DNA of 12,260 nt from Candidatus Methanoperedentaceae archaeon (GTDB taxonomy: Archaea > Halobacteriota > Methanosarcinia > Methanosarcinales > Methanoperedenaceae), in NCBI GenBank assembly GCA_013331375.1, contig DUGO01000042.1, positions 4,860 to 17,119 on the forward strand, in the 5' to 3' direction. Positions within the stretch are counted from its first letter, which is position 1. The number at the start of each line of letters is the position of its first letter. Made by a program: the position numbers and the translations under genes. Below the pieces are notes generated by a model. The model did not search any database. It worked only from the letters and a program-made list of their open reading frames with translations, and was not told where the DNA came from. Shown here one piece after another: positions 3,956 through 10,440 of this stretch.

Positions 3956-5275
3956 ATGGCAGCGAAGAAAATCAAATTATCAGAACTTGGCGAAATGTTC
4001 AAAGGGCTTGACGTTGAGGCTCTTGAAGGCGTAAAAATAGAAGGCGATATCGAGATAGACCTTGGCGGTGCAGGTCTTTCCCCGCAGGTCGCACAGGCGC
4101 TCGGTCATGAAACGACCCAGATCGCTGCCCATCTCATAAACATCGCCCGCATCCTGGGCTACCCAGCTGATAAAGTGCTCGGCATAGGCGGCGCACCCGG
4201 CATTCCGGCGCAGGCGGGAAGACCGGTCCTCCGCGAGCTCATCCCTGCAAAGTTCCAGGCGAACAGGTTCGAGGACTGGAAGAGCCAGATACAGGAAGTC
4301 ACCATAGGCGCAACATCTGCGGACGGGGGCACGAGAAAGAGTACGGTCACGCTTGGGGGCGAGAGGGCGCTGCCCTTCTATCCCGATGCCCCGATGCCTC
4401 ACAGACCGCACATCACGATGGACGTGTTCGACATGCCCATCGGCATGGCAAAAGCCGTAAAATCGCATTACGAAGACATTATCAACAGCCCCGCAGAGTG
4501 GGCTAAGAAGGTCGTGCGGGATTTCGGGGCTGACATGGTCACAATCCATCTCATCAGCACTGACCCGAACATCAAGAACACGTCAGCCAGGGACGCAGCA
4601 AAGACGGTCGAGGACGTGCTCCAGGCTGTGGATGTGCCAATCGTTATAGGCGGCTCAGGCAACCCTGAGAAAGACCCCGAAGTGCTGGAGGCAGCCGCAA
4701 AAGCAGCGGCAGGAGAGCGGTGCCTTCTCGCATCCGCAAGCCTGAACCTCGATTATGCACGCATAGCAAAGGCTGCGAACGAGTTCAACCACGTTGTGCT
4801 CTCATGGACGCAGCTTGAGATCAATGCCCAGAAAGAGCTTAACCGCAAGCTCATGAAGCAGTGCAACGTGAAGCGTGAGAATATCGTGATGGACCCCACG
4901 ACCGCGGCGCTGGGGTACGGGCTCGACTACGCGTACACCAACATGGAGCGTATCAGGCTTGCCGGGCTCACGGGCGACCAGGAGCTATCATTCCCGATGT
5001 CAAGCGGTACCACGAATGCATGGGGCGCGCGAGAAGCATGGATGACATCCTCGCCCATCAAAGAGGACTCTGACTGGGGAGCAAGGGAATACAGGGGACC
5101 GATATGGGAAATCGTCACGGGGCTCACGCTTGCGCTGGCGGGAAATGACCTTTTCATGATGATGCACCCGGGTGCTGTGGCAGTGCTGCGGGAGATAACA
5201 CAGACACTTTTCGGCTCAATCGAATCTGAGGCAATCGACATATCCGGCTGGACCGCAAGAGGGATAAAGCCATGA
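3956..5275 (+). CDS. cdhD: CODH/ACS delta subunit, small subunit of the corrinoid iron-sulfur protein
   Basis: Known: CdhD pairs with CdhE as the corrinoid Fe-S protein that carries the methyl group between tetrahydrosarcinapterin and the A-cluster of acetyl-CoA synthase. Seen: 439 aa, the usual length. The N-terminus ([20 protein letters not shown]) is typical of archaeal CdhD. A TIM-barrel-like body includes [74 protein letters not shown] and the late [18 protein letters not shown]. It has no Fe-S cysteine motif, as expected for this subunit. Its stop codon overlaps the cdhE start (ATGA), so the partners are probably made in equal amounts by translational coupling. Nothing suggests a truncation or pseudogene. 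Confidence 0.96.
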
Positions 5276-6675
5276 GAGTAAAGAGCCCGCTTGAGGTCTA
5301 CAGGTTCCTCCCGCAGATAAACTGCGCCGAGTGCGGTGAGACTACATGCATGGCGTTCGCTGCGCGGCTCATCGACAGGTCAAAGAAGCTCGAAGACTGC
5401 CCGCCGCTGCTGAAAGATGAGTTCAAGAGCAAGTACCTTGAGCTTGCAAGGCTGCTCGCGCCCGAGATACGTGAGATAGTCATAGGTACGGGAGAACATG
5501 CAAAGAAAGTCGGCGGCGATGATGTCCTGTACCGCCACCAGCTCACGTTTTTCAACCCGCCCCTGCTTGCCTACGACGTTGAGGATACCCTGGATGACAA
5601 AGCACTCGTGGAAAGGGTGAAAAAGATACACGATTTCAAGAAGTTCTACGTGGGCAGGTTCCTGAAGCTGAATGGGGTTGCTGTGCGCGCGATCTCAGGT
5701 GATAGAACAAAGTTTGCGGCTGCTGTTAAGAAAGTCGCAGAGACAACACCCCTGCCGATTATCCTCTGCTCCCTTGACCCGGCTATACTCCGGGCAGGTG
5801 TCGAAGCCGTGAAGGACAGGAAACCGCTCATCTATGCTGCAAATGAAACTAACTGGAAAGAGGTCGCAGCGCTCGCGCTTGAATTTAATCTGCCTGTGGT
5901 GCTGTTCTCTGAGAACCTCGATACCCTGAAATCCCTCGCTGTATCATTCGCCGAGATGGGCATAAAGGAGATCGTACTTGACCCCGGCACATATCCTGCT
6001 GGCAAGAAGCTTCGGGAGTCATTCCAGAGGTTCCTTAACCTGCGGCGTGCTGGCATAAAAGAAGGGCAGAAAGACGTCGCGCTGCCGCTCATGGCTGTCC
6101 CGATGACAGCATGGTTCGTCGAGAATGACCCTGTGAACGCATCCTACTGGGAGACCGTGCTCGCCTCCGTTTTCATCGTCCGGTACGCTGATATCATGAT
6201 ACTCCACAGCCTTGAGCCGTATGCGCTCCTGCCAGAGCTGCACCTGCGTGATACTATATACACAGACCCGCGCACCCCAGTCAAGGTCAACCCTGGCGTG
6301 TTCGAGGTAGGCGCTCCCACAAAGGATTCGCCCGTGATAGTCACCACCAACTTCGCACTCACGTACTACACGGTTGAAAGCGACCTGTCCTCCAACAAGG
6401 TCAACTGCTACCTTGCAGCAGTCGACACCGACGGCATAGGCGTGGAAGCAGCGGTTGCAGGCGGGCAGCTCACAGCAGCAAAGATAAAGGACACCTTTTC
6501 TAAAGCCGGGTTTGATTTCAAGGAGAAGACCAGCCACAGCACGCTCATAATACCAGGGCTTGCGGCGCGCCTGCAGGGCGATGCTGAGGATGCTACAGGG
6601 CTCAAGGTCAAAGTGGGACCTCCGGACTCGGGGCGCATACCGGGCTGGCTTGAGAAGAACTGGCCGCCCAAATGA
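5272..6675 (+). CDS. cdhE: CODH/ACS gamma subunit, large corrinoid Fe-S protein subunit
   Basis: Known: CdhE binds a [4Fe-4S] cluster and the corrinoid cofactor, and its cobalt accepts and donates the methyl group. Seen: 467 aa, near the usual archaeal length. The N-terminal cluster motif is C18-x2-C21-x4-C26-x16-C43 ([11 protein letters not shown], then DC). The central TIM-barrel contains [18 protein letters not shown]. The C-terminal corrinoid-binding region reads [13 protein letters not shown], then [20 protein letters not shown], then [13 protein letters not shown]. It starts at the ATG overlapping the cdhD stop. The last codon ends exactly where the stop codon of the convergent gene begins (6675/6676), so the two transcripts must overlap. 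cdhA, cdhB and cdhC are not in the window. Confidence 0.96.
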
Positions 6676-7320
6676 TTACAGCTTCGTGAATCCGAAGGCG
6701 AGCAGTGTGAAAATCACGATTGATATGCCCACTGCAACATAGAACTGGAACTGCGGCACTGACGTAAATAGTTTGGATACTGCGAACAGTATCAGCAGCA
6801 GGACCGCCACAGGTGCGATGAGCCTGTACAGTATGGGCGCAATATTTATTTCAGGAAGTGTGAACGGGATTGTGAACAGGGGCTGTTTTGCAATTAGTGT
6901 GACCTCCTCTTCCTGCACCTCCACCGGAGCCTCAGCCGCATAGTAGTCAGCATGTTGTTCAGGGGCAACTGATGGTGCAGGTTCCTTCAGCTCCCTTATC
7001 TTCAGCGTCACCGTAAGGCTTGCTTTGTTTGCGCCGTACCCGGTAGTGATGAATATCTGTCCTGTTCTCATCGCCGTGCCCGCGGTAAGACGTGCGGTCA
7101 ATGTTACCACCTTTTCCCGCTGCACCTGCGGATACTCATGAGAGAACTGGATATACTCACGCAGCTCATCACTTACCGATAGCTGGACATGTGTGGGCGA
7201 GCTATAATTAGTAAATAACAGATCTGTTCTCTCTTCGCCGCCGGGAGGCACACTGATTGAAAGTTCTTCAGGTTCAAACTCAATTGAGTTCTCACGTGTT
7301 CTGCTCAGATATACCTGCAT
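6676..7320 (-). CDS. Membrane-anchored beta-sandwich protein (214 aa), unknown function
   Basis: Seen: residues 1-105 are beta-rich with an Ig-like pattern (SISVPPGGEERTDLLFTNYS, then TGQIFITTGYGANKASLTVT). Residues 110-140 are an acidic, Ala/Pro-rich linker. Two hydrophobic helices close the protein at about 166-183 and 191-211, so it is a tail-anchored or hairpin-anchored membrane protein. There is no N-terminal signal peptide, so the beta domain may face the cytoplasm. The layout resembles haloarchaeal DUF7524-type proteins, but I claim no firm family. It lies 4 nt after the Trm112-like gene and is probably co-transcribed with it. Its stop codon abuts the cdhE stop codon on the other strand. 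Confidence 0.8.
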   Translation of the reverse strand: MQVYLSRTRENSIEFEPEELSISVPPGGEERTDLLFTNYSSPTHVQLSVSDELREYIQFSHEYPQVQREKVVTLTARLTAGTAMRTGQIFITTGYGANKASLTVTLKIRELKEPAPSVAPEQHADYYAAEAPVEVQEEEVTLIAKQPLFTIPFTLPEINIAPILYRLIAPVAVLLLILFAVSKLFTSVPQFQFYVAVGISIVIFTLLAFGFTKL

Positions 7321-8678: not shown

Positions 8679-9002
8679 ATGAAAATCGGGATAGTTATCA
8701 ATTCAAATGACCCTGAAACGGTGTGGAATGCTTTCAGGTTCGGAACCACGTCACTGCCGATGGAGCATGGGGTAGCGGTCTTCCTGCTCGGTAAAGGGGT
8801 AGAGGCACCCAATATCGCTGACGTGGCATTCAACGTGGGTGAGCAGATGGAGCTCTTCAGCGAGAACGGGGGCAAGATATTTTCCTGCGGGACTTGCCTC
8901 AAGATACGTGGGATGCAGGGAAACGAGATGTGCCCCGTTTCGACGATGCACGACCTGCTTCATATAGTGGAAGAATCGGATAAAATGCTTGTGTTCGGAT
9001 AA
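8679..9002 (+). CDS. DsrE-family sulfur-relay-like protein
   Basis: Seen: 107 aa. The beta1 start MKIGIVINSNDPETVWNAFR, the VFLLGKGVE strand and a Cys-rich segment FSCGTCLKIRG (Cys70, Cys73, with Cys85 in NEMCPVS) are the DsrE/DsrF/TusD-like layout; the Cys73 position corresponds to the usual reactive thiol of DsrE-type proteins. Known: such proteins carry persulfide sulfur or act in thiol chemistry; many archaeal ones lack an assigned partner. GGTGAT lies about 6 nt before the ATG. It sits 29 nt after the CBS-ParB gene and 21 nt before the OsmC gene, so all are probably one operon. No sirA/tusA, dsrAB or tus partner is visible here. Confidence 0.88.
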   Translation: MKIGIVINSNDPETVWNAFRFGTTSLPMEHGVAVFLLGKGVEAPNIADVAFNVGEQMELFSENGGKIFSCGTCLKIRGMQGNEMCPVSTMHDLLHIVEESDKMLVFG

Positions 9003-9023
9003 GACGGTAGAAGGTGGTGGACC

Positions 9024-9560
9024 ATGATAATAAACAGGGTTGATGTTGACAGGTTCAAAGAAACCATCGATAAGGCAAAGAAAGACCCGAAGAGCGGCGG
9101 CAAGAAAGTCATGGAGGTAGAGGGCGTGTGGCGGGCTGATAAGACAGGACCGCAGTTCGAGGCAAAAATCCCGACCGAACATGGCGGGCATATCGTCATG
9201 CATTCCGATGAGACCCTCATACTTGGAGGAGGCGGGACTGCGCCGAACCCGGTACAGTACTTAATTTTCGGTCTTATCGCCTGCTATGCAGCCACATACG
9301 CGAAGTGGGCAGCCATGGATGGAGTCGTGCTCCGCGGGCTGCGCATAAGGGCAGTTGCTGACATGGACTTCACCAAGATCTTCGGGCTGAGCCAGAACCC
9401 CATACTCGAGCACCTGAAATGGGAAATGATAATAGATACCGATGCTGACATAACGACCCTTAACCGGCTGAACGCGCTGTCAAAAGAGCGATGCCCGGGT
9501 TACTACTGCATCACTCACGAGATATTCCCTGAGATCACGATAAGGAAAGCCGGGCATTGA
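9024..9560 (+). CDS. OsmC/Ohr-family thiol peroxidase-like protein
   Basis: Known: OsmC/Ohr proteins reduce organic hydroperoxides using two conserved cysteines; some paralogues have other roles. Seen: 178 aa, slightly longer than a standard OsmC (about 140) because of a 30-40 residue N-terminal extension. The OsmC core includes GGHIVMHSDETLILGGGGTA, PNPVQYLIFGLIACYAATYA with Cys87 at the peroxidatic position, and RCPGYYCITH with Cys157 and Cys162 at the resolving position. A third Cys near the second motif is unusual. GGTGG lies just upstream of the ATG. It is last in the cluster and is followed by the regulatory region of the MsvR-like gene, fitting a peroxide/thiol-stress role. Confidence 0.9.
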   Translation: MIINRVDVDRFKETIDKAKKDPKSGGKKVMEVEGVWRADKTGPQFEAKIPTEHGGHIVMHSDETLILGGGGTAPNPVQYLIFGLIACYAATYAKWAAMDGVVLRGLRIRAVADMDFTKIFGLSQNPILEHLKWEMIIDTDADITTLNRLNALSKERCPGYYCITHEIFPEITIRKAGH

Positions 9561-9590
9561 CAGGGCAGTTAAATATTCATGTGGAAATCC

Positions 9591-9610
9591 GGTTTCGTTG
9601 TGACGAATCC
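9591..9610. promoter_or_regulatory. Palindromic operator candidate 1 (TTCG-N6-CGAA)
   Basis: GG-T-TTCGT, then TGTG, then ACGAA-T-CC is a 20-bp dyad with a single mismatched pair. The core TTCGT/ACGAA matches the half-sites of the published MsvR operator (TTCGTA-N4-TACGAA, from memory), but the arms are 2 bp closer. It lies 30 bp after the OsmC stop and about 90 bp before msvR. Confidence 0.5.
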
Positions 9611-9649
9611 AGTGACGTAATGAATATATACGATTTTATTAATAATTGA

Positions 9650-9665
9650 TTCGTGCATAAACGAA
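9650..9665. promoter_or_regulatory. Palindromic operator candidate 2 (TTCG-N8-CGAA) beside the msvR TATA box
   Basis: TTCGT, then GCATAA, then ACGAA gives TTCG-N8-CGAA, the same overall length as the MsvR consensus TTCGTA-N4-TACGAA, with five of six arm bases matching on each side. It ends 5 bp before the TATA box at 9671-9676, overlapping where BRE/TFB would sit, which suits repression of msvR by its own product. Confidence 0.6.
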
Positions 9666-9670
9666 CATTA

Positions 9671-9676
9671 TTTATA
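9671..9676 (+). promoter_or_regulatory. TATA box of the MsvR-like gene
   Basis: TTTATA is centred 26-27 nt before ATG 9700 and no Shine-Dalgarno lies between, so a leaderless transcript is expected. Confidence 0.55.
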
Positions 9677-9699
9677 GACCGAATGCCATCTACCTCATT

Positions 9700-10440
9700 A
9701 TGAAAGAGGACCGGGCTCCCACCACAATAATGGCAACCCAAAGCGGAATAGTGGCTCTGGACAGCCCGGTGAAAATAAAGATCATTGAGTTCCTGACGTT
9801 TGAAAACAAGACGTTTGACGAGCTTGTTGAAGCCACAAGGAAAGCTAAATCGACAGTGTCAGTCCATCTTAGCGACCTTGAAAAACTCGGGCTCATAGTT
9901 GCAAGAGCTGACCCCCAGGACAGGAGAAAGAAGCTGTACCTGCTTAACTCGCTGTACGTTGCGCGCTCCCAGCGCCCGGTCAACAAGCATTACGACGATG
10001 TTCTGAACAGCATATGCAGGGCAAGCCCGAGCCAGTATGACTTCCTGAAATGCATGTTCCATACGATGCGGTACGGCTTAGAAGCATACGGCTTTGACCC
10101 GCAACCGATAATGAAAAAGATGGGATTTGACATAGGCACCAGGATATCCACTCGATTCGAGTCTGATACGCTCGACAGCCTGGTCGAGGAGGTATCGGGA
10201 TTCTGGAGCATCTGCAAGATGGGCGACCTGTCACTGGTGCGAAGAGACCCCCTGACCATCAAAGTACGGGATTGTTTTGACTGCTGTAATATGCCCAACG
10301 TGGGAAAGACGCTGTGCTCACTGGACGAAGGCATCCTGGAAGGCATAATCCGCGGCAGGCTGGGCAGGGCATGCAGGGTTAAAGAGACCGAGTGCTTCGG
10401 CACTGGCTACGACCACTGTCTGTTTGTAATTTCCTTCTGA
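9700..10440 (+). CDS. msvR: MsvR-like redox-sensing transcriptional regulator (ArsR-type wHTH + V4R domain)
   Basis: Seen: 246 aa. A winged helix-turn-helix occupies about residues 15-85 (VKIKIIEFLTFENKTFDELV; recognition helix KSTVSVHLSDLEKLGLI). A linker follows, then a V4R domain at about 105-246. The C-terminal part is rich in Cys: 172, 192, 195, 196, 206, 225, 232 and 240, in DCFDCCNM, TLCSLDEGILEGIIRG, RACRVKETECFG and YDHCLF. Known: MsvR is a methanogen-specific regulator whose V4R cysteines sense redox state; in Methanothermobacter it controls its own gene and an oxidative-stress operon. The two TTCG...CGAA palindromes upstream support this identity and suggest autoregulation. It is probably leaderless. 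What it controls beyond itself is unknown; the OsmC/DsrE cluster next door is the obvious candidate. Confidence 0.88.
   Translation: MKEDRAPTTIMATQSGIVALDSPVKIKIIEFLTFENKTFDELVEATRKAKSTVSVHLSDLEKLGLIVARADPQDRRKKLYLLNSLYVARSQRPVNKHYDDVLNSICRASPSQYDFLKCMFHTMRYGLEAYGFDPQPIMKKMGFDIGTRISTRFESDTLDSLVEEVSGFWSICKMGDLSLVRRDPLTIKVRDCFDCCNMPNVGKTLCSLDEGILEGIIRGRLGRACRVKETECFGTGYDHCLFVISF

Follow-up and report, generated by a model that had tools for sequence, protein, structure and literature searches.

Two inverted repeats with TTCG and CGAA arms occupy the 139-bp gap between an OsmC-like gene (9024..9560, plus strand, Pfam PF02566) and the co-directional regulator gene directly downstream (9700..10440, plus strand) in the window, the whole 12,260-nucleotide stretch of Methanoperedenaceae DNA analysed here. 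The initial annotation took both repeats for MsvR-type operators, and the question raised by the locus is whether the regulator is MsvR and, if so, which of the two repeats would serve as its operator. The 246-aa product matched PF01022 (winged helix-turn-helix) at residues 22-66 and PF02830 (V4R) at residues 186-245 in Pfam, and it scored 281.3 bits against the NCBIfam MsvR equivalog NF053755 (cut-off 220), bearing out the domain composition first assigned to it. Among its cysteines C206, C225, C232 and C240, three (C206, C232 and C240) keep the numbering of the V4R cysteines mutated or studied in M. acetivorans MsvR (PMC3729527), and C206 and C240 were invariant across nine aligned MsvR sequences. 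Judged from its sequence, the product is MsvR. The nearest orthologs in the comparison set are about 50% identical, the window's genome being the sole member of its genus there, while proteins with 54-55% identity exist in databases outside the locus comparison. On the same strand as msvR, CdhD-family genes are followed by CBS, DsrE-like and OsmC-like genes up to msvR (window 3956-6675 and 8679-9560).

According to published work on MsvR (PMC3729527), boxes A and B are the halves of a single inverted repeat, TTCGTAN4TACGAA, printed there in the form quoted in the initial annotation. Mutation of either box abolishes binding, and insertion or deletion of one base is tolerated in vitro, giving TTCGN7-9CGAA. 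Flanks with less than 20% G+C support binding by MaMsvR and flanks with more than 40% abolish it, and repression is thought to act by covering the BRE (PMC3729527). The abstract's conclusion reads 'non-reducing' and the results read 'reducing'; the results are followed here. Since boxes A and B form one operator, what had been annotated as one of two operators corresponds to the whole published operator. The repeat nearer to msvR, TTCGTGCATAAACGAA, lies exactly where it was first placed, at 9650-9665 (box A 9650-9655, box B 9660-9665), and each of its arms matches five of the six published arm bases, as claimed. It is a TTCG-N8-CGAA dyad beside the TATA/BRE region and upstream of msvR, within the N7..9 range, and its 17-bp flanks contain 6% and 29% G+C, A+T-rich on both sides with the right flank between the published limits. 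The three nucleotides CAT separate its CGAA from the TATA box TTATTTATA (9668..9676, plus strand), a gap small enough for the description that the dyad abuts the TATA box to hold. The TATA box stands about 27 nt before the ATG, which implies a nearly leaderless mRNA, and the mapped start site of M. acetivorans msvR supports this reading (PMC3729527). TTCG-N8-CGAA occurs once in the whole window against 0.24 expected. The proximal dyad shares with the M. acetivorans operator its TTCGT/ACGAA-type arms, the N8 spacing, flanks rich in A+T and a near-leaderless start, and like it covers the BRE, 5' of the TATA box and next to its own gene; it differs in the core bases, in the exact distance to the ATG and in belonging to a Methanoperedenaceae genome.

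Conservation was assessed at 139 msvR loci of the order, of which 131, the window included, were kept. The eight set aside were a Methanosarcina MAG duplicate (L031, the same locus as L125), a split gene in genome G027 with a misplaced start (L046 and L163) and five paralogs about 30% identical (L047-L051). In 123 of the 131 loci an exact TTCG-N8-CGAA begins between -46 and -57 relative to the ATG, and with a proper start G027 has the dyad as well, which brings the count to 124 of 132 orthologs. Six of the eight misses carry a single mismatch at the same position and the other two retain the right half-site only; five genomes of one genus in family f5 (L104, L106, L115, L117 and L121) share the variant TTCG-N8-CTAA, with the mismatch in the right arm. 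All 123 exact sites have a C directly after CGAA; in 101 of them a TATA-like hexamer starts 1-5 nt past CGAA (1-4 nt in 97, 2-3 nt in 95), and 15 lack any of the four TATA-like hexamers used. None of the 123 has more than 40% G+C in both flanks. In L105, presumed to be M. acetivorans, the dyad reads TTCGTAGTCACGCGAA and is followed by a TATA box. The TTCG-N8-CGAA dyad was absent from all five paralogs, which have a different dyad, and by eye the promoters of four of them (L048-L051) carry TTAGAT...ATCTAA-type repeats and no TTCG dyads. Throughout the order the dyad keeps both its N8 spacing and its position next to the TATA box. The initial annotation had proposed this comparison and named absence of the dyads upstream of a conserved protein as the outcome that would speak against it; for the proximal dyad that outcome did not occur. 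Its further suggestion of spacing tolerance found no counterpart in Methanosarcinales. The published range of N7-9 was obtained in vitro, whereas the genomes of the order have only N8 among exact sites (123 of the 131 loci, and G027), and no N7 or N9 dyad was found within 300 bp upstream in the 131 loci. With N8 in all 123 exact sites, the tolerance seen in vitro is not used there.

The distal dyad, TTCGTTGTGACGAA, is of doubtful function. It lies 33 bp 3' of the OsmC-like stop codon, and the initial annotation was right that it exists and too generous with its extent: the dyad spans 9594-9607, and the wider 9591-9610 is reached only by adding GG/CC beyond a T/T mismatch. Both dyads have the same five-base arms, and their centres (9600.5 and 9657.5) are indeed 57 bp apart, or 5.4 helical turns. 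Read as TTCG-N6-CGAA (TTCGT-N4-ACGAA), the distal dyad falls outside the N7..9 spacing, and its flanks, with 47% and 41% G+C, are not A+T-rich. The four-base form occurs twice in the whole window against 0.23 expected, the second match lying at 6683-6696, at the end of a minus-strand DUF7524 ORF. When the 139-bp intergenic region minus the proximal site was shuffled 20,000 times with dinucleotides preserved, 0.29% of the shuffles contained TTCGT-N2..12-ACGAA, 0.23% TTCG-N6-CGAA and 2.6% any TTCG-N4..14-CGAA, so that by this measure the distal dyad is locally unusual (P ~0.003); from the genome-wide rate at non-operator spacings (13 in 1.65 Mb), about 0.001 such dyads would be expected in 139 bp. 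In the 150 bp above the proximal site, neither TTCGT-N2..12-ACGAA nor TTCG-N6-CGAA was present in any of the 130 other orthologs, and some TTCG-N4..14-CGAA in two of them. The absence that was to speak against the proposal is what was found here, with the protein conserved, and together with the G+C-rich flanks it leaves the reading of two operators unsupported. We reject the distal dyad as a conserved operator. Its absence elsewhere is weak evidence against a site private to the lineage, because the nearest orthologs are no closer than about 50% identity and none is from the same genus. Looping between the two dyads, also suggested at first, was rejected on the separation of 5.4 turns and the absence of the arrangement from relatives.

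Promoters with two dyads do occur upstream of msvR homologues elsewhere. Among 38 more distant msvR loci (L208-L245), with up to one mismatch allowed per dyad, pairs of dyads at a distance of exactly 18 bp occur in 17: four of four in family f15 (all N7), five of eight in f17, three of four each in f27 and f9, and both loci of f26. Such pairs were absent from the two loci of f20, the one of f16 and the 13 of f10 and f32, the last at 25-30% identity and possibly including paralogs; several start codons in the set are uncertain. In all four f15 loci a further N8 dyad with 0-1 mismatch lies 58-111 bp upstream of the starts of the proximal ones. Two-site msvR promoters are real, but they are built unlike that of the window: their contiguous dyads, N7 or N8 each, have centres 18 bp apart, and those of the window combine N6 and N8 at 57 bp. 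Within the order, no second dyad stands in tandem at 18 bp from the proximal one at any of the 131 loci, the window included. The Mth PmsvR/fpaA promoter, with boxes 1-3 and upstream footprinting, is another comparison; there MsvR controls itself through the inverted repeat of boxes 2 and 3 (PMC3729527), and action of MsvR on its own gene through an inverted repeat is the feature shared with our locus. Mth differs in having a third box and an oxidative-stress operon that is transcribed divergently; in the window the neighbour is the OsmC-like gene on the same strand as msvR, and both the spacing and the distance of the extra dyad are different.

These observations bear on what the distal dyad might be. 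It may be a lineage-specific auxiliary MsvR site at which a second dimer, bound with lower affinity, tunes or strengthens repression or controls readthrough from the OsmC-like gene. The points in favour of such a site are also those that count against a single operator, namely the rarity of the dyad among shuffles (~0.3%), its arms identical to the proximal ones, and the multi-dyad msvR promoters of 17 of 38 distant loci with the remote extra dyads in f15 (4/4); the third box of Mth, with its upstream footprinting, adds to them (PMC3729527). The N6 spacing and the G+C-rich flanks are wrong for MsvR, however, and at 5.4 turns the two dyads face opposite sides of the helix, out of step with the 18-bp register that known tandem promoters show, which counts against an auxiliary role. 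With no counterpart in any of the 130 orthologs and a spacing not enriched in the family, we consider this explanation unlikely, though a private auxiliary site keeps a real minority chance. The repeat might instead act as RNA, as a 3'-end hairpin of five pairs and a tetraloop on the transcript of the OsmC operon, given its position past the OsmC-like stop codon and a predicted fold (GG-U-UUCGU-UGUG-ACGAA-U-CC) of -6.5 kcal/mol. Equally stable folds were obtained from 33 of 200 shuffles, though, the fold of the 80-nt 3' region is poorer than average (z 0.45) and no terminator-like site was found in 9540-9720; a terminator or RNA hairpin is very improbable and was rejected.

Whether MsvR is the protein that reads these sites can be approached from their distribution. 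The window's own genome contains 23 TTCGT-N2..12-ACGAA dyads, 10 of them with the spacing of the operator, N8 between four-base arms, and the other 13 spread over ten further spacings (Poisson P ~1e-6); across all spacings the total does not exceed the reversed control (27), and N8 alone stands out. Enrichment of the operator spacing is also seen family-wide: across 34 genomes it accounts for 400 sites and the reversed pattern for 126. The spacing of the distal dyad, N4 between five-base arms, shows none, with 37 sites in these genomes and 155 for its reversed pattern. Outside the family, 36 genomes with msvR hold 84 sites (reversed control 135) and 24 without msvR hold 18 (reversed control 52), the two groups having been picked by hand with several members incomplete; sites being few in both, the comparison gave no link between motif and MsvR and marks the N8 enrichment as a trait of the family. 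Another winged-helix regulator could be imagined to read the family's TTCGT-N6-ACGAA sites, the one at msvR included. Most family sites lie away from msvR, many with a TATATA core unlike that of the msvR sites; at least four of the ten N8 sites of the own genome fall inside long ORFs by our own ORF reading (L164, L165 at 1173, L167 and L170), a result that also tells against a clean regulon; and MsvR-bearing genomes outside the family are, as the counts show, poor in sites. Against this, msvR promoters throughout the order have the dyad, and binding to it is published for the MsvR proteins of two other species (PMC3729527); we regard a different regulator as improbable. The family regions that were read, 20 in number, came from two genomes (14 of 15 sites in G018 and 6 of 17 in G017). 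Ten site-adjacent genes were compared with Pfam; among the families represented were DUF1699, CCG/Fer4 (heterodisulfide-reductase-like), CGGC, KaiB, molybdopterin oxidoreductase and EF-Tu-type GTPase, and three of the ten had no Pfam family. By eye, the operator in three genomes (L169, L272 and L285) is followed by an unnamed protein sharing a LADIFE...GGLMLGLANLGNHPQGF-like stretch, for which two copies scanned gave no Pfam family.

The explanation that we prefer, and hold to be probable, is a single conserved operator at 9650-9665 through which MsvR represses its own gene, with the distal repeat at 9594-9607 most likely accidental or private to the lineage. The proximal dyad is very probably the autoregulatory operator of MsvR, as its conservation and the published work on MsvR strongly suggest, which agrees with the autoregulation first proposed. 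An MsvR dimer on 9650-9665 would cover the purine-rich element just 5' of the TATA box and would block TBP/TFB at 9668-9676, leading to autorepression of msvR, and oxidation of the V4R cysteines may free MsvR and lift the repression. Binding, repression and redox release by the window's own MsvR are proposed here by analogy with M. acetivorans and Mth. The distal dyad, for its part, is most likely non-functional for MsvR. The locus presents a known operator in a new lineage, with a doubtful second site and an extension across the family. That the MsvR operator pattern extends to another lineage, as first claimed, is supported by the conserved dyad in a Methanoperedenaceae genome.

The extension concerns the surroundings of the family's sites: at many of those read, a perfect stem with a long loop begins only a few nucleotides further on. 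In a search of 60 genomes, the stem AGTGGGCAG-N20..50-CTGCCCACT was found in 72 copies in 33 of the 34 family genomes and in none of the 26 other genomes of the order, and the reversed pattern gave no match. The window's own genome is the single family member without the exact stem; it carries a variant whose end pair is compensatory, together with a hairpin of a second class (L070 and L063). From 30 returned loci (L287-L316, 30 genomes), read on the C-richer strand, 32 distinct hairpins were collected, and in 31 of them TTCG-N8-CGAA starts 17-22 nt before the stem with a TATA box ahead of the operator; the search stem was derived from operator-linked copies, and operator-free hairpin classes may exist. 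The element consists of a TATA box, TTCG-N8-CGAA over the start site (start site and orientation being inferred from the TATA box), a stem of 9-10 bp (AGTGGGCAG/CTGCCCACT or a variant) and a loop of 20-50 nt with a T run and a ACCACCATAATCCCC-like sequence complementary to the Shine-Dalgarno sequence. Paired changes are seen in the stem variants GTGAGCAG/CTGCTCAC and AGATAAGCG/CGCTTATCT. By eye, many promoters among L287-L316 carry TTTAC...GTAAAC over the BRE, possibly the site of a second regulator, and many of these loci have CCTCCT just past the stem, possibly an anti-Shine-Dalgarno stretch. The element had no match in Rfam at gathering level, with one chance-level match at E = 1. In IMG/VR the stem pattern occurred in 36 stretches, and the operator was absent from the preceding 45 nt in all of them; the exact operator TTCGTATATATACGAA was present in 10 stretches. 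Directly observed are the element itself, its confinement to the family among the genomes covered, and how closely it goes with the operator. We advance, tentatively and as a possibility that we do not favour, the idea that in Methanoperedenaceae the MsvR operator has spread to a regulon with a family of small hairpin RNAs as its core, in which MsvR would place translation-targeting RNAs under redox control; in the hairpin elements the transcription start would lie under the operator, which is likewise where a repressor would sit.

With the window, an anaerobic methane oxidiser joins the scheme of MsvR autoregulation, and the operator is defined more sharply: the order keeps to N8 at its 123 exact sites, and elsewhere N7 or pairs of dyads at an 18-bp distance are used. 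Our searches of the Methanoperedens/ANME-2d literature on small RNAs, MsvR, transcription factors and oxidative stress brought up no account of the hairpin element. Of more value than the window's operator is what it leads to, a family-wide set of TTCGT-N6-ACGAA sites, many of them at the promoters of this undescribed element, which makes a link between redox state and RNA directly testable in Methanoperedenaceae. If that link is true, it would mean redox-switched, translation-targeting RNAs in nitrate- and metal-dependent methane oxidisers.
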